Shown piece by piece: positions 2,254-11,014 of a DNA stretch of 64,000 bases. Under the pieces are notes generated by a model, which saw only the letters and a program-made list of their open reading frames with translations, was not told where the DNA came from and did not search any database. Source of the DNA: Streptomyces sp. NBC_00178 (GTDB lineage Bacteria; Actinomycetota; Actinomycetes; Streptomycetales; Streptomycetaceae); NCBI RefSeq assembly GCF_036206005.1, contig NZ_CP108143.1, forward strand, positions 620,001-684,000, given 5' to 3'. The stretch's first letter is position 1. The number at the start of each line of letters is the position of its first letter. The position numbers were made by a program, and so were the translations under genes.

Positions 2254-3132
2254 TCAGCCGGCCGCCTCCAGGGCGTCGGCGACGAGTCCGAGGAACCGCG
2301 CGTGGGCACGGGCGCTGCAGAGCGGTTCCGGGTTCCACGGCACGGTCCGCACGCCCGGGGCGGCGTCCCGCCACGCGGGTTCCCCGATCTCGGCGAGGGG
2401 CACGGCGTTGGCCCTGATGTCCGCCAGGACGACGCCCGGCTCCAGGGCCGCGGCCTGGGTCCAGTCGACGGTCGCCCAGTTGACACCGGCCCCCTCGGGC
2501 GGGGACACCAGCTCCACACCGAGCTCCGCCAGCACCCGTAGCTCCGGCCACATCCGCGGGCGCGCGACATAGGCCTGCCCGGGGCCGGCGGGAGAGAGGG
2601 CCAGCACGCGGGGGCCGCCGGGGGAATGGGAGCGTGCGACGGCGCGCAGGCGCTCGCGCGCCGCTTCCAGGCCGCTCGCCGCGTCCGGGTCCGTCGAGCC
2701 GCCGAGCGAACGCGCGAGTGCGGCGAACCGCTCGCTGACGCGGTCCAGGGTGCGCGCCTGCCCGACGTCGATCACGACGACCGGAACGCTCTCCTCCAGG
2801 TGCTTGGCGGTGTCGGGTTCCAGACCGTAGAGCTGGCCGTGGCCGTAGCTGACGGCGACGACCAGGTCGGGCCGGCCGCGTAACAGCGTGTCGAGGTCCA
2901 GGTCGTCACCGGCGCCCCGGTAGTCGACGGCGTCCAGGGGAAGGCCGCCGGCCTTGGCCCGGTCCGGCCCGGCGCCGTCGTGGCCCGAGCCGAAGATCCC
3001 CTCCGGGCGGACACCGTGATCCCAGAGGGTCGCGCCCGCCTGGATGTAGGCCAGCACCCTGGACGGACGGCGGTCCGCCGCCGCCAGCCGGCCTCGGTCG
3101 TCCTCGAAGCTCCACCCGCTCTGCTCGGCCAT
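2254..3132 (-). CDS. TroA/FhuD-like solute-binding domain protein without signal peptide
   Basis: A 292-residue protein resembling periplasmic binding proteins for iron-siderophores or metals (TroA-like fold). It has an N-terminal lobe with [17 protein letters not shown] and [11 protein letters not shown], a linking helix, and a C-terminal lobe with [16 protein letters not shown]. The N-terminus ([16 protein letters not shown]) is hydrophilic, with no signal peptide or lipobox, so the protein is predicted to be cytoplasmic, which is odd for this fold. ATG 3132 has a GGAGGG site upstream and lies 6 bp after the acetyltransferase stop, so the two are co-transcribed. No permease or ATPase gene is adjacent. 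Ligand and role are unknown. Confidence 0.7.
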
Positions 3133-3138
3133 GCCGTC

Positions 3139-3831
3139 TCACCCCTCCGGACGGGCGGCCTCGGCGCTCTCCGGGGCTCGCCACCCACTACTTGCCCAGC
3201 CCGCCGGTCCCACACCCTCGGTGGAGCGCCCCAGATAGGTCAGGGGCCCCGGGTCGGGGACGTCGATCACCCGGAAGCCGAGGCGGTCGTAGAAGGCCCT
3301 GGCCGGGGTGTTGGCGGTCACCATGGACAGGTGCACGGCCGGTACGCCCCCGCTGTGCAGGGCGTACAGGAAGGTGTCCATCAGCTTCCGGCCGTACCCC
3401 CTGCGCTGCCAGGCCGGCAGCAGGTCGATGTGCAGGTGGGCGGGGTGGGCGTCCAGTTCGGGGAGGACCATGCGCTCGGGGCGGTACAGGAGAGCCGTCA
3501 TGGCCTCCGTGGGCGAGTGCGGCTCACCCCCGGGCTCCGGGAAGCGGTCCCTCACCCGGGGCAGCCAGATCTCGCGGAAGTCCGCGGCGAAGCGCCGGGT
3601 GTCCGCCGTGCCCAGGACGTAGCCGACGGCCCGCCCCGAGCCGTCGTCGAGGACGAAGGCCAGCTCGGGTTCGAGGTGGGCGTACGGCGCCGCGAAGAGC
3701 GCGGGCATCAGCCAGGGGTCGGGGTGGAGGTGCCGGGAGTCACCGCCGTTGTCGGCCGTGCGGACGCAGATGTCCGCCAGGGCCTCGTGGTCCGCGGGGC
3801 GGTAGGGCCGTACGTGCGCTGCCTCGGTCAT
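3139..3831 (-). CDS. GNAT N-acetyltransferase, OGA-HAT-like
   Basis: About 230 residues. The start at 3831 (MTEAAHVRPYRPADHEAL) is preferred over an in-frame codon 33 bp upstream, because that one would put the CebR-type box inside the gene. The acetyl-CoA-binding motif is LPAWQRRGYGRKLMD (about residues 158-172), followed by VTANTPARAFYDRLGF. From memory, the opening, the ICVRTADNGGDSRHL stretch and the whole layout closely match bacterial relatives of the C-terminal acetyltransferase-like domain of human O-GlcNAcase, including one from Streptomyces sviceus. Their substrate is unsettled. The gene heads a unit with the solute-binding-like gene. The operator at 3850-3863 suggests control by cello-oligosaccharides. 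Confidence 0.85.
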   Translation of the reverse strand: MTEAAHVRPYRPADHEALADICVRTADNGGDSRHLHPDPWLMPALFAAPYAHLEPELAFVLDDGSGRAVGYVLGTADTRRFAADFREIWLPRVRDRFPEPGGEPHSPTEAMTALLYRPERMVLPELDAHPAHLHIDLLPAWQRRGYGRKLMDTFLYALHSGGVPAVHLSMVTANTPARAFYDRLGFRVIDVPDPGPLTYLGRSTEGVGPAGWASSGWRAPESAEAARPEG

Positions 3832-3849
3832 GGCCGCATCCTCCACCCT

Positions 3850-3863
3850 TGGGAGCGCTCCCA
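3850..3863. promoter_or_regulatory. CebR-type operator TGGGAGCGCTCCCA
   Basis: A perfect 14-bp palindrome identical to the known Streptomyces CebR box, the target of the LacI-family cellobiose/cello-oligosaccharide repressor. It ends 19 bp before the preferred acetyltransferase start at 3831 and lies in the 51-bp gap after the YihY gene. No cellulase or cellobiose transporter is nearby, so the regulator would be encoded elsewhere. Confidence 0.85.
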
Positions 3864-3882
3864 CAAGGGGCCCGCAGGCCGG

Positions 3883-4794
3883 TCAGGACGCCTTCCCCTC
3901 CCGCGGGCACGCCGTGCGGGCGAGCTCCACGTTGAACTGGGCGCCGGTCAGGAGGGAGAGGTTCGCGAACCAGACCCAGATCAGGAAGACGACCAGACCC
4001 GCGAGCGAACCGTAGAGCCTGCTGTAGCTCCCGACGTGGGTCGCGTAGAGGGCGAAGCCGGCCGAGGCGACCAGCCACAGGAACGCGGCGAGCACACCAC
4101 CGGGCAGCCCTCGTCGCACCCCCCGGGCCGTGCGTGGGCCGGTGTTGAAGAGGACCACGATGAGGCAGGCGACCAGGCAGAGCAGCACGGGCCACTTGAG
4201 GGCGGCCCAGAGCGTCTCACCGGCCTGGGCGAGACCGATGCGGCGGCCGAGCCACCGGGCGAGGGGACCGGTGAGCACGAGGGCGAAGGCACTGGCCATC
4301 AGCAGGACGAGCAGCCCGACGGCCGAGGCCACGATGATGTGCACCTGGCGCAGCGGCGGCCTGGTGTCCTTCACGTCGTGCATGGCGTGCATCGCCCGCC
4401 GGAAGACCGCCAGGTAGCTGGACGCCGACCAGATGGCGCTGACACTGCCCGTGGCGACGAGGAGCCACACGGCGGTGCGCTCCTGGGTGGCCGCCTCCAG
4501 GGGCCGGCGCAGCGCAGCGCCCGACTCGGCCGGCGCGATCGCCGTGATGTCGGCGATCAACGCGTTGGTCGCGCCGGGGTTGGCCAGGCCGATGACGGAG
4601 ACCGTGACCAGAAGCGCGGGGAGCAGGGCGAGGATCGCGTAGTAGGTGAGGGCAGCGGCCCAGTCGGAGATGTCGTCGTTCCACAAGGAGACGGGCGTCC
4701 GGCGCAGAGCGGTGCGCCACCGCCTCGTCGTCGCGGTGCGTCCGCCCGTGCGCGGGGGGCGTTCCGCGAGGGGGGTGTCGGTCCTGCTGGGCAC
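3883..4794 (-). CDS. YihY/BrkB-family inner-membrane protein
   Basis: A 303-residue polytopic membrane protein of the YihY (formerly BrkB/ribonuclease BN) family. After a basic N-terminus come about six hydrophobic segments. Family landmarks are WAAALTYYAILALLPALL near residue 45 and YSRLYGSLAGLVVFLIWVWF near residue 260. The family is widespread, but its transport or structural role is not established. It ends 51 bp before the acetyltransferase gene and is separated from it by the CebR-type box, so it is probably a separate unit. Confidence 0.88.
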   Translation of the reverse strand: MPSRTDTPLAERPPRTGGRTATTRRWRTALRRTPVSLWNDDISDWAAALTYYAILALLPALLVTVSVIGLANPGATNALIADITAIAPAESGAALRRPLEAATQERTAVWLLVATGSVSAIWSASSYLAVFRRAMHAMHDVKDTRPPLRQVHIIVASAVGLLVLLMASAFALVLTGPLARWLGRRIGLAQAGETLWAALKWPVLLCLVACLIVVLFNTGPRTARGVRRGLPGGVLAAFLWLVASAGFALYATHVGSYSRLYGSLAGLVVFLIWVWFANLSLLTGAQFNVELARTACPREGKAS

Positions 4795-4922: not shown

Positions 4923-5240
4923 TCAGACGTTGACGGCCGTGAGCAGCACCACCGCGTCCTCCAGGGCCAGCAGCCCGTGCCGCTCCTGGGGGATGGGGTG
5001 GAGCCGCCCCTCCGCCAGCTCCACGTCCCCCGACGCGGCGGTGATCCGCACGGCGCCGCGCAGCACCTGCAGCGACGCGGCGGGCGGGGCGTTGTGCTCG
5101 TCCAGGGCGGAGCCCGCGGTCAGCGCGATCACCGTCTGCCGCAGTGGCTCCTGGCGCAGCAGCAGGTGCGCGCTGCGCCCGTGCGCCGCGGCACGGGCCG
5201 CGGACAGGTGCTCGTCGGCGAGAGCGTTGAGATCGTCCAT
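4923..5240 (-). CDS. Small single-domain cupin protein
   Basis: A 105-residue protein, MDDLNALADEHL onward, with a compact beta-barrel pattern: an RQTVIALTAGSALDEHNAPPAAS strand-turn, LQVLRGAVRIT, and a C-terminal ERHGLLALEDAVVLLT. Only one His of the usual cupin metal site is clear, so metal binding is uncertain. ATG 5240 is chosen because the family-like part begins there, although the frame stays open far upstream inside the glucosidase gene. It lies 32 bp after the alpha-glucosidase stop and is the last gene of the cassette. It may be a sensor or accessory protein; its function is unknown. Confidence 0.65.
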   Translation of the reverse strand: MDDLNALADEHLSAARAAAHGRSAHLLLRQEPLRQTVIALTAGSALDEHNAPPAASLQVLRGAVRITAASGDVELAEGRLHPIPQERHGLLALEDAVVLLTAVNV

Positions 5241-5272
5241 ACGACCACTGTGCCGCAGCCTCCGCTCCCCCG

Positions 5273-6907
5273 CTATCCCTCCCCGCGCAGCCAGGCCGCG
5301 GTGTCGGGGGGCAGCGTGCCCGAGGGGTCCAGCGGGGCGCTGGTCAGCAGGACCGTGTCGTGGTCGGGGAGCGCCACGGGACCGGCCGAGAGGTTGACGA
5401 CGCAGATCAGGCCGTGCGTGCGCGCGAACGCCAGGACGCCCGGCTCCGACGGCAGCCAGTTCAGCCGGCCCTCCGCGGTCTCGCCGGGGGCGGCGGCGAA
5501 ACCCGGTTCGGCGCGCCTCAGCCCCAGCGCCGTGCGGTAGAGGCTGAGCATGGACGCGGGATCGGTGCTCTGCGTGTCGGCCGCGTACGAGGGCCAGGAC
5601 TCCGGCTGCGGCAGCCAGGGCTCCCCCGTCGATCCGAAGCCGGCGTAGGGCTCGCCGGCGGACCACGGCAGGGGCACGCGGCAGCCGTCGCGGCCGGGGT
5701 CGACGCCGCCCGAGCGCAGGTGCATCGGGTCCTGGATCCGCTCGCGGGGGATCTCGGCCTCGGGCAGGCCGAGCTCCTCCCCCTGGTAGAGGTAGACGGC
5801 TCCTGGCAGCGCCAGTGAGAGCAGGGCGGCGGCACGCGCCCGCCGGGTGCCGAGCTCCGGGTCGGTGGGCGTGCCGAAGACCTTGGCCGCGAAGTCGAAG
5901 CCGGTGTCCTCGCGTCCGTAACGGGTGACGGTGCGGGTCACGTCGTGGTTGCACAGCACCCAGGTGGCGGGGGCGCCGACCGGGGCGTGCTCGGCGAGCG
6001 TGTCGTCGATCGAGGAGCGCAGGAGCCCGGCGTCCCACGGGCAGGAGAGGAAGGTGAAGTTGAAGGCCGTGTGCAGTTCGTCGGGGCGCAGGTAGCGGGC
6101 GAAGCGCTCGGAGTCCGGGAGCCAGACCTCGCCGACGAAGATGGCCCCGTAGGCGTCCGCGATGGTGCGCCAGGAGCGGTAGATGTCGTGGAGCTCGTCG
6201 CGGTCGATGTACGGGTGCGGGTCGACGCCCTCGGTGAAGTCGGGCAGTGCGGGGTCCTTGGCGAGCAGGGCCGCGGAGTCGATGCGCACGCCGGCCACGC
6301 CCCGCTCGAACCAGAAGCGCAGGACGTCCTCGTGCTCCTGGCGGACCGCGGGGTGCGCCCAGTTGACGTCGGGCTGCCCGGGGGCGAAGAGGTGCAGGTA
6401 CCACTGGCCGTCGTCGAGCCGCGTCCAGGGTGTGCCGCCGAATTCGGAGACCCAGTCGTTGGGCGGGATCTCGCCGTGCTCGCCGCGTCCCTCACGGAAG
6501 TGGAAGAGATCGCGTTCGGGGCTGCCCGGTGCGGCGGCCAGGGCGGCGCGGAACCAGCTGTGCCGGTCGGAGACGTGGTTGGGGACGATGTCGATGATGG
6601 TGCGGATGCCCAGGTCGCGTGCCTCGGCGATGAGCTTCTCGGCCTCGGCGAGGGTGCCGAAGGCGGGGTCGATGGCGCGGTAGTCGGCCACGTCGTAGCC
6701 GCCGTCGGCCAGCGGGGAGAGGTACCAGGGGGTGAACCACAGTGCGTCCACGCCCAGTTCGACGAGGTAGGGAAGCTTCGCCCGGACGCCCGCGAGGTCG
6801 CCGGTGCCGTCTCCGTCGCCGTCGGCGAAGCTGCGTACGTAGATCTGGTAGATGGCGGCGTCGCGCCACCACGGTGCGGTGGCCTCGGTCGGACGGATGG
6901 CTGCCAC
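5273..6907 (-). CDS. GH13 alpha-glucosidase (cytoplasmic)
   Basis: A 544-residue glycoside hydrolase family 13 enzyme without a signal peptide. It begins with the family's WWRDAAIYQIYVRSFAD. The TIM barrel shows DIVPNHVS, GVRIDSAALL with nucleophile Asp210, GEVW with acid/base Glu260 and CNHDVTR with Asp322. Overall layout matches oligo-1,6-glucosidase/alpha-glucosidases that hydrolyse imported short alpha-glucosides to glucose. It is the fourth gene of the binding protein-permease-permease-hydrolase cassette, 111 bp after the MalG-like gene, so it very probably processes what that importer brings in. Linkage preference cannot be read from sequence. The neighbouring alpha-1,3-glucanase gene makes nigero-oligosaccharides a candidate next to maltose-type sugars. 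Confidence 0.92.
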   Translation of the reverse strand: MAAIRPTEATAPWWRDAAIYQIYVRSFADGDGDGTGDLAGVRAKLPYLVELGVDALWFTPWYLSPLADGGYDVADYRAIDPAFGTLAEAEKLIAEARDLGIRTIIDIVPNHVSDRHSWFRAALAAAPGSPERDLFHFREGRGEHGEIPPNDWVSEFGGTPWTRLDDGQWYLHLFAPGQPDVNWAHPAVRQEHEDVLRFWFERGVAGVRIDSAALLAKDPALPDFTEGVDPHPYIDRDELHDIYRSWRTIADAYGAIFVGEVWLPDSERFARYLRPDELHTAFNFTFLSCPWDAGLLRSSIDDTLAEHAPVGAPATWVLCNHDVTRTVTRYGREDTGFDFAAKVFGTPTDPELGTRRARAAALLSLALPGAVYLYQGEELGLPEAEIPRERIQDPMHLRSGGVDPGRDGCRVPLPWSAGEPYAGFGSTGEPWLPQPESWPSYAADTQSTDPASMLSLYRTALGLRRAEPGFAAAPGETAEGRLNWLPSEPGVLAFARTHGLICVVNLSAGPVALPDHDTVLLTSAPLDPSGTLPPDTAAWLRGEG

Positions 6908-7018
6908 GTGACGTTCCTTTCGGGCAGGAGGTACTCCGCCCCCGGCCCGGACACGGGGCGTGGATGGGTGGGCCGGAGGCGGAGTGCTGGTGGGGAGGCG
7001 GTGGTTCGGAGGGGGGCG

Positions 7019-7963
7019 TCAGCCCTTGAGGCCGCCCGCGGTGAGACCGCTCATGATGTTGCGCTGGAAGAGCAGGAAGATGAGCAGCGTCGGGACCGAC
7101 GCGATGGTGAGCGCGGCGATGAGGACGTTGAGCGGGACGCCGTTGGACAGCGAGTAGATGCCCACGTTGAGGGTCTGCTTCGCCGGATCGGGGAGGGTGA
7201 GCATGGGCCAGAGGAAGTCCTTCCAGACCCCGACCACCGCGAAGATGGACACGACCCCGAGGATCGGGCGCGATATCGGCAGCACGATGCTGCGCAGGGT
7301 GCGCAGCGGCGAGGCGCCGTCGATGGCCGCGGCGTCGAGGAGCTCACCCGGGATCGAGTCGAAGAACCGCTTCAGCAGGAAGATGTTGAAGGCGTTGGTG
7401 ACCGACGGGAGCCAGATCGCCCAGGGCGAGTTGAGCAGGTTCCGCTCGAAGATCGGCACGTCGAGGACCGTCAGGTACTGCGGGACCACGAGCACGGTCG
7501 CCGGGATCATCAGGGTGGCGAGCATCATGCCCAGGATGACCTTGCCGAAGACCGGGCGCAGTTTGGACAGCGAGTAGGCGGCGGCCACGTCGAGGACCAG
7601 CTGGAAGGCGAGCGCCCCGAAGGCGTAGTACAGGGTGTTGAAGAGCAGCTTGGACAGGTCCATCACGGTCCACGCCTGGGAGTAGTTCTCCGTGTGGACC
7701 GACGACGGGAAGACGGTCGGCGGGCTCTGGACGACCTCCTGGGTGGCCTTGAGGCCTCCGGTGACCATCCAGTAGAGCGGTCCGAGGAACGCCAGGGTGA
7801 AGGCCGTGACCACCAGGGCGAAGACGATCCAGTAGACGGCCCTGCCCCGGGGGCGGCCGAGCTGGGCCGGTGAGATCAGGGTCCGCTGGCGGCCCCGGTC
7901 CATGTCCCGGCGCCGGCCGGCGTTGCGGGCCCCGCGCCGGGAGACAAGCGTGTTCGATGCCAT
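7019..7963 (-). CDS. Carbohydrate ABC permease, MalG-like
   Basis: A 314-residue membrane protein with about six transmembrane segments and a basic N-terminal tail. The cytoplasmic EAA loop that contacts the ATPase reads ELLDAAAIDGASPLRTLRSI. It ends in GLTAGGLKG, the usual C-terminus of MalG-type subunits. It is the inner-membrane partner of the MalF-like subunit encoded 15 bp upstream and of the lipoprotein at 9030-10442. The cassette has no ATPase gene, so a shared MsiK-type ATPase encoded elsewhere is the likely energiser. Confidence 0.92.
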   Translation of the reverse strand: MASNTLVSRRGARNAGRRRDMDRGRQRTLISPAQLGRPRGRAVYWIVFALVVTAFTLAFLGPLYWMVTGGLKATQEVVQSPPTVFPSSVHTENYSQAWTVMDLSKLLFNTLYYAFGALAFQLVLDVAAAYSLSKLRPVFGKVILGMMLATLMIPATVLVVPQYLTVLDVPIFERNLLNSPWAIWLPSVTNAFNIFLLKRFFDSIPGELLDAAAIDGASPLRTLRSIVLPISRPILGVVSIFAVVGVWKDFLWPMLTLPDPAKQTLNVGIYSLSNGVPLNVLIAALTIASVPTLLIFLLFQRNIMSGLTAGGLKG

Positions 7964-7978
7964 CGTCGTGCTCCCGTC

Positions 7979-8941
7979 CTAGTCTTCGCTGCTGCGGCTG
8001 AGGCGTACGTACACCGCGGAGAAGCCCGCGAGCACGATGAGCAGGACGAGTCCGAGGGCCGCCGCGCTGCCGTAGTTGTTGAAGTTGAAGGCGTACTGGT
8101 AGATGAGGTAGACGACGGTGGTGGTCGAGCCTTCCGGGCCGGCGCCGTTGGTGAGCAGGAACGGCTCGGTGAAGACCTGCATCGTCGCGATGATCTGCAT
8201 GAGCAGCAGCAGGGACAGGATGAGCCGCGTCTGCGGGATGGTGACGTGCCAGACCTTGCGCAGCAGCCCGGCACCGTCGAGTTCGGCCGCCTCGTAGAGC
8301 TCGCCGGGGATCCCCTGGAGGGCGGCGAGGTAGATGAGCGTGGCCCCGCCCATGTTCATCCAGGTCGACGCGATGACGACGGAGAGCATGGACGTGTCGG
8401 GGTCCTGGAGCCATTGCAGGGCCGGCAGGTGCAGGAATTCCAGGATGCGGTTGAAGAGCCCGTAGCCCGGGTCGTAGAAGTACTTGAAGAGCAGTACGGA
8501 GGCGACCGGGGGCAGCATCACGGGCAGGTAGACGAGCAGGCGCAGATATCCCTGCGCGTGCCGGAACTCGTTGATCACTACGGCGACGACGAACGGAACC
8601 GCGAAGCCCAGGACGAGGGCCAGCGCCGTGAAGAGCAGGGTGTTGCGCCAGGCCTGCCAGAACGCCGGGTCGTTGAAGACGTAGCTCAGGTTGGACCAGC
8701 CGGCCCAGGTGGTCCTGCCGTCCTCGGTCTTCTGGAAGGCCAGGACGAATTCCCTGACCATGGGATACCAGGAGAAGAAGGAGAAGCAGAGCACCGCTCC
8801 GATCAGGAAGCCGTGTGCCGAGATGTTGCGGCGCACGGCGCGCACGAACTCCTCGCGGGTGGAGTCCGGCCCGGTGGGGCGCTGGTGGTGCCCGGGTGGC
8901 GGCGCGCTCGCCTTCCCGGTGGACAGGGTGGGGGCCGACAT
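7979..8941 (-). CDS. Carbohydrate ABC permease, MalF-like
   Basis: A 320-residue polytopic subunit. After about 45 polar residues comes the first membrane span (GFLIGAVLCFSFFSWYPM), then five more, with the EAA loop ELYEAAELDGAGLLRKVWH. ATG 8941 has a GGAGAG site 5 bp upstream. It forms the translocation channel with the MalG-like product of the next gene. The order binding protein, MalF, MalG, hydrolase is standard for actinobacterial oligosaccharide cassettes. Confidence 0.92.
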   Translation of the reverse strand: MSAPTLSTGKASAPPPGHHQRPTGPDSTREEFVRAVRRNISAHGFLIGAVLCFSFFSWYPMVREFVLAFQKTEDGRTTWAGWSNLSYVFNDPAFWQAWRNTLLFTALALVLGFAVPFVVAVVINEFRHAQGYLRLLVYLPVMLPPVASVLLFKYFYDPGYGLFNRILEFLHLPALQWLQDPDTSMLSVVIASTWMNMGGATLIYLAALQGIPGELYEAAELDGAGLLRKVWHVTIPQTRLILSLLLLMQIIATMQVFTEPFLLTNGAGPEGSTTTVVYLIYQYAFNFNNYGSAAALGLVLLIVLAGFSAVYVRLSRSSED

Positions 8942-9029
8942 GGTCTCTCCTCGGTGCGGGTGCAGTCGCTCGCAGACGGACGGTCCGGATGCGGGGCCGG
9001 GCCCGCCCGGCCCGGCACCCGCACGTCCG

Positions 9030-10442
9030 TCACTGGTTCGCCAGAACCTGGTTCACCTGCTGCTCCGCGGTGTCGAGCAGCTTGTCGATGTCGGCGTCCT
9101 TGTTGGTCAGGACCGCGGACATCGCGTTGTCGAGGATCTTGTAGATCTCCTGGGCCTTCGGCGGCTCGGCCTTGCCCTGGACGGGGTTGTCCATGAACGC
9201 CTTGAAGTTCTGCACGGGCATCGTGGCGTTGGCGACGCGGTCGGCGTCGTCCTTCGCCTTGCTCTCACCGGTGAAGAAGTTCGGCTGCGGCAGTCCGACG
9301 GGCAGCGCGTCGGCCTTGGTGCGGGCCCACTCAAACTGGCCCTTGCCGGGGGTGAGGTTCTTGAAGTTCAGCCAGGCGACGGCGGCCTTGATCTTGTCGG
9401 GCGAACTGCCCTTCTTGATCATGTAGTTGTTGCCGCCGAACAGGGTTCCCTGGGCGCCGGGAATCGGACCGAGACCGAAGTTCTCGTACTTCGCGCCGAG
9501 TTGCTGCACCATGTAGGCGATGTCGTCGGGCGCGGCCAGGAACATGCCGAGCTTGTCGGTGGAGATCTGCTTCTGCAGGTCGCCCCACTTCAGCAGCTGC
9601 GTCCTGCCCATGCTGTCGTCCTTCCAGCGCATGTCGTGCAGCTGCTGGAGGACCTGCTTGCCCTTGTCGTCGTTGAAGGCGGCCTTCTTGCCGCTCGCGT
9701 CGACGACGTCCCCGCCCAGGCCGTACTGCGTGGCGGTGAAGTGCCAGCCTCCGTTGTTGCCGGCGCTGTACTCGCCGAATCCCGCGATGCCCTTGCCGAG
9801 GCCCGCGATCTTCTTGCTCGCGGCGCGGACGTCCTCCCAGGTGGCCGGCGGGGTGTCGGGGTTCAGGCCGGCCTGCGTGAACAGCTTCCGGTTGATCATC
9901 AGGCCCATGGTGTAGTTGCTGGTCGGCAGCGCGTACAGCTTGCCGTCCTTGCGGGCGACGTCGAGCACCTGCGGCTGGATGTCCTTCAGCGCCGGGACCG
10001 AGGTGTCGTTGACGTAGGCGGAGATGTCCTCCGCGCCGTCGTTGTCCAGCACCTGCTGCAGGTCGGTGAAGTACGCGTAGAACACGTCGGGCTGCGACTT
10101 GCCCTTGAGCATGGCCGTGAAGCGCGGCGGCTCCAGGCACTGGCCCGGCGTCGACTTCCCGTCGATCTTGACGTTCGGGTACTTCTTGTTGAACGTCTTG
10201 ACGTCCTCGTTCCACTCGCGCAGCTCGGCCGCCTTCGCGGCCGGCGGCATGCAGTCGATCGACAGCGTCACCTTGGCCTTCGGGTCGAGCGGCGCTGACG
10301 GGTCGGACGAACCGCTGCCGGAGTCGTCGTTCCCGTCGCCGCTGCTGCTCGTGCCGCAGGAGGCAAGGGCGGTCAGGGCGAGGGCGGTGACGACGGCGGC
10401 CGCGGAGGCACGGCGGGTACGGCGAATCCCAGCACTTCTCAT
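9030..10442 (-). CDS. Extracellular sugar-binding lipoprotein (alpha-glucoside importer)
   Basis: A 470-residue family-1 solute-binding protein. The start at 10442 (MRSAGIRRTRRAS) gives a basic n-region, a hydrophobic core and the lipobox LASC, so it is a lipid-anchored receptor. The frame continues 246 bp upstream, but that extension destroys the signal peptide. After a Gly/Ser/Asp linker the mature domain begins KVTLSIDCMPPAAKAAEL. Typical features are YPNVKIDGKSTPG and DVFYAYFTDLQQVLD. It is first in the cassette. Substrate is inferred from the linked GH13 alpha-glucosidase and the upstream alpha-glucanase gene: short alpha-gluco-oligosaccharides. Confidence 0.9.
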   Translation of the reverse strand: MRSAGIRRTRRASAAAVVTALALTALASCGTSSSGDGNDDSGSGSSDPSAPLDPKAKVTLSIDCMPPAAKAAELREWNEDVKTFNKKYPNVKIDGKSTPGQCLEPPRFTAMLKGKSQPDVFYAYFTDLQQVLDNDGAEDISAYVNDTSVPALKDIQPQVLDVARKDGKLYALPTSNYTMGLMINRKLFTQAGLNPDTPPATWEDVRAASKKIAGLGKGIAGFGEYSAGNNGGWHFTATQYGLGGDVVDASGKKAAFNDDKGKQVLQQLHDMRWKDDSMGRTQLLKWGDLQKQISTDKLGMFLAAPDDIAYMVQQLGAKYENFGLGPIPGAQGTLFGGNNYMIKKGSSPDKIKAAVAWLNFKNLTPGKGQFEWARTKADALPVGLPQPNFFTGESKAKDDADRVANATMPVQNFKAFMDNPVQGKAEPPKAQEIYKILDNAMSAVLTNKDADIDKLLDTAEQQVNQVLANQ

Positions 10443-11014
10443 CGGTGGTCCCCTTCGGGCATGAGCACGGTAGGCCCCGGCCGACTCTCTCTGTCGGGGC
10501 GCGGCACACTCAACCACTGGCGACATGTGAGCGCAATATCTCGCGCAGTTTTCGTAAATGTTTGACATCCCTCCGCATGCGACGCACGGCGGATTGAAGG
10601 TGCCTCGACTCCGCGTGGCGCCCGCGGCGGACCCCAGGCCGGCGCCCACGACTGCCCGACGACGCCCCACAGGGCCCCAGGAGGCCACTGAGGGCCCGTA
10701 CGGGGGTGGGAGCCGGGACCGGATGCCGTCGCGTCGCGAGACGACCGCACACGGCCGGCCGAGAGGTGCTCGGAGACACGTGAAAAGCCGTCAGCACCCT
10801 GCGGGGCAGGGCACCGACGGCTCTCCGCCCGGCGGCCGCGACCGACGGTCTCGATGCGGAGCCGGGCTCGCCCACGGGCCCACGGGCGGCCTCGGGGAGC
10901 GCGATTCGGTCTCCGCTCCCGCAAGAGACGGACTTCCACGCGCAAGGGCGCTACGCGAGCGGGGTACCCCCGGATGCTCCCGGAGGTACCCCGCCCGCAC
11001 GGTGTGCGCCCCCC
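10443..11014. other. 572-bp gap: cassette promoter and upstream terminator
   Basis: No credible gene. The half nearer the binding-protein gene is the only AT-leaning part (10530-10570). It holds GTTTTCGTAAATG (10548-10560) and an imperfect GCGC-flanked repeat around 10531-10546, the likely promoter/operator zone of the alpha-glucoside cassette. No clear -35/-10 pair could be fixed. The half nearer the GH87 gene contains that gene's terminator. Confidence 0.5.
10783..10822 (-). terminator. Intrinsic terminator of the GH87 gene
   Basis: In minus-strand RNA, AGCCGUC at one end pairs with GACGGCU at the other. The stem continues through three G-U wobbles into GCCCUGC/GCAGGGU, giving about 17 pairs and a three-base loop, followed by UUUU. 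This is the most classical terminator in the window, about 190 bases past the GH87 stop. Confidence 0.8.

Follow-up and report, generated by a model that had tools for sequence, protein, structure and literature searches.

The CebR (CelR) regulon of Streptomyces and Thermobifida shares a 14-bp consensus operator, TGGGAGCGCTCCCA, which is the sequence used by CebR according to the available portions of two reports (PMC4898821, PMC5332605); the same portions describe constitutive cellulases upon deletion of cebR in Streptomyces sp. SirexAA-E. Hydrolases, an LPMO, binding proteins, a transporter, the regulator, and the thaxtomin genes are the targets named in the available portion of PMC5332605. 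Another palindrome, TGAGAGCGCTCTCA, precedes GH16 (possible endo-1,3-beta-glucanase) and ABC transporter genes in Catenulispora acidiphila (PMC3377646, available portion), and the main text of that paper mentions no acetyltransferase. On the protein side, the closest described systems are the acetyltransferases SsAT from Streptomyces sviceus (Protein Data Bank [PDB]: 4bmh) and OgpAT (PDB: 3zj0) and the HAT-like domain of O-GlcNAcase (PDB: 6r45). As far as the available portion of the SsAT paper goes, the structure has been solved, the protein binds acetyl-CoA, the acceptor pocket holds unexplained density, and the authors suggest a small polar molecule as acceptor; neither regulation (the strings "promoter," "operon," and "cellul" occur 0 times) nor a physiological role is given there.

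Here, we analyze a 64,000-nt stretch of a Streptomyces genome (hereafter, the window) in which, in contrast to the known CebR targets, an acetyltransferase gene has an exact CebR box on its putative leaderless core promoter. The encoded protein, a member of the GNAT class, shares 70% identity, the fold, and the acetyl-CoA and acceptor residues with SsAT, and it has its fold in common with OgpAT and the O-GlcNAcase HAT-like domain. CebR boxes also stand at the cebR, cebE, bglC, and GH6 genes of this genome, whereas, compared with the C. acidiphila TGAGAGCGCTCTCA sites, the GNAT gene bears either box type depending on the lineage. Neither PMC4898821 nor PMC8914351 uses the terms acetyltransferase or GNAT in its main text, acetyltransferase is likewise absent from that of PMC5332605, and we found no link of this GNAT to CebR in the literature searched; because the supplementary list of predicted targets of PMC4898821 might name the gene, novelty is claimed only against that literature.

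The box, the acetyltransferase, and the genes around them

The intergenic segment 3832–3882 is the entire gap between the GNAT start codon (ATG, 3831–3829, minus strand) and the stop codon (3883–3885) of the upstream YihY/BrkB gene. As the original prediction had it, positions 3850–3863 within this gap equal the CebR box: the match to TGGGAGCGCTCCCA, a 14-bp palindrome, is exact and is the sole exact copy in the window, where the 7 further matches have 3 mismatches each, a number close to that in shuffled sequence. In the whole genome (7.38 Mb; the window is C1:620001–684000), TGGGAGCGCTCCCA is found 4 times exactly and 4 times with one mismatch, compared with ∼0.10 exact copies expected per 7.38 Mb from the base composition of the window; when the pattern is reversed as a control, there are 0 exact copies and 2 places with at most one mismatch. 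The features are collected in Table 1.

Table 1. Features around the predicted operator, in window coordinates
Feature	Position	Strand	Basis
Solute-binding-like gene, probable second gene of the transcript	2254..3132	minus	Peripla_BP_2 below cut-off; gap to GNAT gene
GNAT acetyltransferase gene, O-GlcNAcase-HAT-like (SsAT/OgpAT) family, 230 aa	3139..3831	minus	Pfam, PDB sequence search, predicted structure
Putative -10 GAGGAT, spacer 17, six nt before ATG	3838..3843	minus	CAGGAT-like hexamer in orthologs
CebR box TGGGAGCGCTCCCA, palindromic operator (predicted)	3850..3863	.	Exact; kept before orthologs
Putative -35 TTGTGG, overlaps box	3861..3866	minus	TTG at this place in 39/42 orthologs
YihY/BrkB-family membrane protein gene	3883..4794	minus	Pfam; NCBIfam TIGR00765; end 19 bp from box

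CebR itself is encoded in the genome, in a cebR-bglC-cebE locus (L003), and its best matches in S. scabiei 87.22 and S. griseus NCTC13033 are 79% and 88% identical to it, respectively. Within this locus, exact boxes are found 116 bp upstream of cebR and ahead of cebE, with a one-mismatch box immediately in front of bglC; elsewhere, an exact box is found 966 bp ahead of a GH6-CBM2 gene (L001), and TGGGAACGCTCCCA (one mismatch) lies 38 bp upstream of a solute-binding-protein gene (L004). The TGGGAGCGCTCCCA-type sites of this genome other than the one at the GNAT gene thus mark what is, by prediction, a CebR regulon. A DUF4230 gene on the strand opposite to the GH6-CBM2 gene (L001:6974–7939) has the same exact box 248 bp upstream. 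About 9 kb before the window (L002:9089–9126), a tandem pair of cGGGAGCGCTCCCA (one mismatch each), 24 bp apart, is found at the start of another GH6 gene, which it precedes if translation begins at Met24 of the open frame.

The original prediction described the gene behind the box as a GNAT resembling the C-terminal domain of O-GlcNAcase, and this is confirmed by a match to Pfam Acetyltransf_1 and by comparison of a confident structural model (pLDDT 92) with solved structures. The closest solved relative among the matches listed is SsAT (70% identity over 202 residues, Z 34.6), and OgpAT and the O-GlcNAcase HAT-like domain match with Z 27.4 and Z 22.9, respectively. SsAT residues Tyr103, His185, His187, Asp189, P-loop Gln195, Asn227, Phe233, and Tyr234, which the available portion of the SsAT paper assigns to acetyl-CoA and the acceptor, correspond with an offset of 53 to Y50, H132, H134, D136, Q142, N174, F180, and Y181 of the GNAT. 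All eight, including the two histidines H132 and H134, are invariant in 32 orthologs, and the protein should therefore, by prediction, be an active enzyme. Whereas the human O-GlcNAcase domain has an atypical acetyl-CoA loop (as stated in the part of the source available), the P-loop motif Q/R-x-x-G-x-G/A is intact here (Q142-R-R-G-Y-G147). An alternative GTG start at 3864, which adjoins the box, would extend the GNAT frame; it is unlikely to be the true start because homologs align from the ATG at 3831.

The solute-binding-like gene starts 6 nt past the GNAT stop codon on the same strand, and co-transcription of the two is plausible. Its product scores 20.9 bits against Peripla_BP_2, under the curated cut-off of 27.5, and on inspection by eye no signal peptide was seen in it. 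Such solute-binding-like genes occur near only 25/80 orthologs, and the 6-nt spacing is, as judged from the genomes compared, a feature of this clade. On the upstream side, all genes assigned from ∼10448 to 766 are on the minus strand, with gaps up to ∼150 bp, and because it lies on the same strand, read-through from the YihY/BrkB gene is possible. The minus-strand run at 4923–10448 encodes a maltose-type solute-binding protein, two permeases, and an alpha-amylase-family enzyme; a small gene (no Pfam or NCBIfam match) and then the YihY gene lead from it into the GNAT gene. Further downstream, a ribosomal protein L31 gene (1860–2123) separates the solute-binding-like gene from a PfkB kinase gene. 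OgpAT adjoins a GH84 O-GlcNAcase gene (PMC3814719, available portion), whereas no GH84 gene was found among the window neighbors scanned.

Conservation of the box and of the promoter layout

When 350 bp upstream of the orthologs was scanned in the best 80 of 213 named loci, a box within 2 mismatches was found in 64/80 cases (exact in 33/80) and a reversed box in 0/80. Because this named set leans toward close relatives, we also drew 199 Streptomyces genomes evenly across the genus, calling the gene at E ≤ 1e-40. The gene is present in 75/199 genomes; in 54/75 of these a box within two changes of TGRGAGCGCTCYCA lies in the 300 bp upstream (exact CebR box, 30/75; reversed, 0/75). The two sets share species and are not independent. 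The comparative test that accompanied the original prediction, namely whether the box is absent before orthologs, hence did not refute it, and, taken together with CebR and the boxes at ceb and cellulase genes, the comparison supports placing the acetyltransferase gene within the predicted cellulose-response regulon. All three Streptosporangiaceae loci in the named set (L044, L063, and L066) are boxed, as are 4/4 orthologs from one family (f17) of a class-wide sample, one of which is apparently the L044 genome again.

The box travels with the gene, not with its surroundings, as seen from the 51/80 loci in which none of eight other window proteins turned up: 36/51 are still boxed, 17/51 exactly (some of the 51 loci sit on short contigs). 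Grouping the loci by shared neighbors gave 23 groups, a low estimate because the grouping is single-linkage, and 20/23 have a boxed member. The idea that the whole neighborhood (mal-type operon, YihY gene, and solute-binding-like gene) forms a conserved unit is rejected by the same 51 loci. In S. griseoluteus (L077), GH9 and LPMO10-CBM2 genes precede a GNAT gene with a near-exact box, and in S. paradoxus (L083), the GNAT gene is directly followed by an LPMO10 gene behind an exact box of its own.

Several further observations were made at these loci. Between and before the S. griseoluteus GH9/LPMO10-CBM2 genes (L077:753–5932) there are exact CebR boxes at 3032 and 3209. The additional CebR-type box after the GNAT gene is exact in S. 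paradoxus (L083:6698, fronting LPMO10) and reads TGAGAGCGCTCCCA at L076:6696, behind which no intact counterpart was seen. At L073:5953–7358, two GNATs of this family adjoin, the second being 37% identical to the window protein.

Not every lineage has kept the operator. The S. scabiei and S. stelliscabiei orthologs have no box, nor do those of a group in which another small gene immediately precedes the GNAT gene; the no-box state changes ∼6 times across the gene tree, and well-supported branches force at least 4 of these changes. No box within 2 changes was found before divergent homologs at 39–59% identity (0/21, covering 21 of ∼50 such matches), and six of the 75 genus orthologs, at 50–56% identity, likewise have no box within two changes. 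Around 20 of the divergent homologs, inspected by eye, no recurrent sugar gene was noticed; a purA-like gene adjoins one group of them.

In the window, TTGTGG (3866–3861), the box (3863–3850), GAGGAT (3843–3838), and the ATG follow in this order, and the layout recurs in the orthologs. A CAGGAT-like hexamer (at most 1 mismatch) is found 6–7 nt before the start in 42/53 boxed and 14/21 unboxed orthologs, compared with 3.3% of shuffled upstream sequences; these counts cover 74 of the 75 even-sample sequences, CAGGAT was chosen after viewing the same sequences, and kinship alone preserves some likeness. Among the 42 boxed orthologs having this -10-like element, 39 have a -35 TTG at the right spacing and 41 have the box start 20–21 nt before the -10; the element was not found in 11/53 boxed orthologs. 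This layout suggests a leaderless transcript, with the operator over the -35/spacer region, i.e., a box that overlaps the putative core promoter. The box is therefore in promoter position and kept before orthologs, with losses in some lineages, and the putative promoter persists in many orthologs after loss of the operator.

Presence of the gene also goes with a larger CebR regulon. Across the 199 genomes of the even sample, the median number of exact boxes, not counting the one at the GNAT gene, is 7 where the gene is present (n = 75) and 3 where it is absent (n = 124; Mann-Whitney p = 2e-10, not corrected for phylogeny), and at most one other box is found in 2/75 versus 37/124 genomes. Within genomes that have the gene, the number of other boxes shows no difference between exact-box and non-exact orthologs (p = 0.93); regulon size thus does not predict an exact GNAT box, which speaks against a simple dose relation.

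A second box type and competing readings

At the third and twelfth box positions, the 80 named loci divide into G/C (44), A/T (8), G/T (10), A/C (3), and unclassed (15), so that G/C boxes make up most of those classed (44 of 65). Put in terms of whole boxes, TGAGAGCGCTCTCA (the TGAGAG type) stands before 8/80 orthologs and a mixed box before 13/80; in one of the eight TGAGAGCGCTCTCA orthologs (L014), AGGGAGCGCTCCCC is also present, closer to the start. The mirrored types are more frequent than expected if the positions varied independently (p = 0.0009, kinship ignored). On the gene tree, the four box labels need 19 changes and the TGAGAG type needs at least 5; the TGAGAG label is not clustered beyond chance (55/500 shuffles as low), and the count alone therefore cannot tell repeated switching from noise.

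The present genome has four exact TGAGAGCGCTCTCA sites, at a LacI-SBP_bac_5-GH1-GH3 operon and at GH64, GH16, and alpha-lytic-type protease genes; none is at the GNAT gene, whose box is of the TGGGAG type. The four loci are L272:8056–19500, L273:4157–5525, L274:3737–5275, and L275:4698–5935 (C1 5.11–5.26 Mb and 6.62 Mb). The TGAGAGCGCTCTCA sites probably constitute a second LacI regulon (LacI, SBP_bac_5 transporter, GH1, GH3-CBM11, GH64, GH16, and alpha-lytic-type protease), one looking, from its predicted members, like a fungal-wall or beta-1,3-glucan program. In three other genomes (G001, G002, and G004), a scan of ten proteins encoded at TGAGAG or mixed boxes, or behind them, gave four GH64 and three GH16 members, an alpha-lytic-type protease, a protein with no match, and a kumamolisin-type protease, the last encoded behind a GH1 gene with a mixed box; G002 has a GH1 gene in this setting. 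Exact CebR boxes in G001 and G004 front GH6, GH5, GH9, LPMO10, CebE-type, and GH1 genes at 8/8 sites. The six TGRGAGCGCTCYCA sites of G002 comprise five TGAGAG sites, the GNAT's among them, and one mixed site, whereas in Planobispora (G005) the sole TGAGAG site of 11 is that of the GNAT gene and the other 10 are TGGGAG; the 4 of these 10 that were examined front GH48 and CebE-type genes, with one site also fronting a LacI gene. Because the box type differs between lineages and the two types front distinct glucanase genes, the gene apparently belongs to whichever glucan regulon is at hand in the lineage and, on this comparison, seems to move between the two.

These variants bear on who reads the box in the window. 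Another LacI paralog, a beta-1,3-glucan/fungal-wall regulator or some other, could do so, in which case the GNAT would not respond to cellobiose; the TGAGAGCGCTCTCA and mixed boxes before some orthologs, the GH64, GH16, GH1, SBP_bac_5, and alpha-lytic protease genes that the variant fronts here and in G001, G002, and G004, and the many LacI homologs per genome (6–13 at E ≤ 1e-40 in 7 genomes), several of which could read similar boxes, all fit such an arrangement. We nevertheless consider it unlikely, since the GNAT box here is of the exact CebR type while the 4 exact TGAGAG sites of this genome are elsewhere, the G/C type predominates among the classed boxes, and the one TGAGAG site of Planobispora, amid 10 of the TGGGAG type, is the GNAT's. 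It is also conceivable that the operator is real and matters little, the GNAT being read chiefly from upstream (the mal-type operon, a glucosidase, and YihY), as the minus-strand run of assigned genes from ∼10448 to 766, with gaps up to ∼150 bp, would allow; retention of the box and of the putative promoter in orthologs that do not have those neighbors makes this quite improbable. Finally, that the palindrome is no operator at all, but an RNA hairpin (e.g., the end of the YihY transcript, given a perfect 14-bp inverted repeat 19 bp behind the YihY stop codon) or a chance word, deserves hardly any credence: no T run follows it, it is kept in loci without YihY at a fixed distance from the -10, and the 4 exact genomic copies against ∼0.1 expected, with 0 in the reversed control, reject a chance origin.

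Predicted regulation, substrate, and significance

The reading that we favor, and consider probable, is that CebR represses the GNAT gene through an operator over the -35/spacer region of a leaderless promoter and that cello-oligosaccharide induces it, with the binding, the induction, and the transcription start all being predicted. A CebR-repressed acetyltransferase is, as a prediction, well supported by comparison. In the absence of cello-oligosaccharides, CebR on the operator would block RNA polymerase; when cellobiose or cellotriose enters the cell, CebR would be released, and a transcript would start at or next to the ATG, from which the acetyltransferase would be made and, in this clade, the neighboring solute-binding-like protein as well. 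The cytoplasmic GNAT would thus be made alongside the cellulases and the cellobiose transporter as part of the glucan-utilization response, and there it would probably acetylate a small polar amine met during feeding on wall glucans. That most close relatives keep the operator wherever the gene sits suggests that the enzyme is on during the use of plant or fungal wall sugars.

As to the acceptor, an amino sugar or a glucosaminide is the first candidate, a weak guess by analogy, made because the O-GlcNAcase-linked kin adjoin N-acetylglucosaminidases and because, in a fungal protein, the GNAT region joined to such an enzyme uses glucosamine as acceptor. A paper on a Clostridium enzyme, to go by its title, reportedly also bears on glucosamine as a substrate. 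The fungal protein is RmNag, in which the GNAT region is fused to an N-acetylglucosaminidase-type enzyme (PMC4680927, available portion); it is not among the best 60 of 121 PDB sequence matches nor among the 50 structure matches listed for the window GNAT.

A broader proposal joins these elements: the family members in Streptomyces and Streptosporangiaceae would be dedicated enzymes of wall-glucan feeding, their operator would have switched repeatedly between the CebR and the beta-1,3-glucan/fungal-wall regulon by mirrored half-site changes, and the acceptor would be an amino sugar or glucosaminide taken up together with those oligosaccharides. As a whole, we regard this proposal as doubtful, if worth stating.

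A conserved CebR operator implies that the cell calls on the gene when growing on cellulose or related glucans. For the organism, a regulon known chiefly through its secreted hydrolases and uptake functions would thereby gain an acetylation step inside the cell. For the GNAT and SsAT, the operator narrows the substrate question to a short list of conditions and metabolites, and the proposal of dedicated wall-glucan enzymes, if true, would place the family, including the enigmatic domain of human O-GlcNAcase, in a physiological context and open a way to the substrate.
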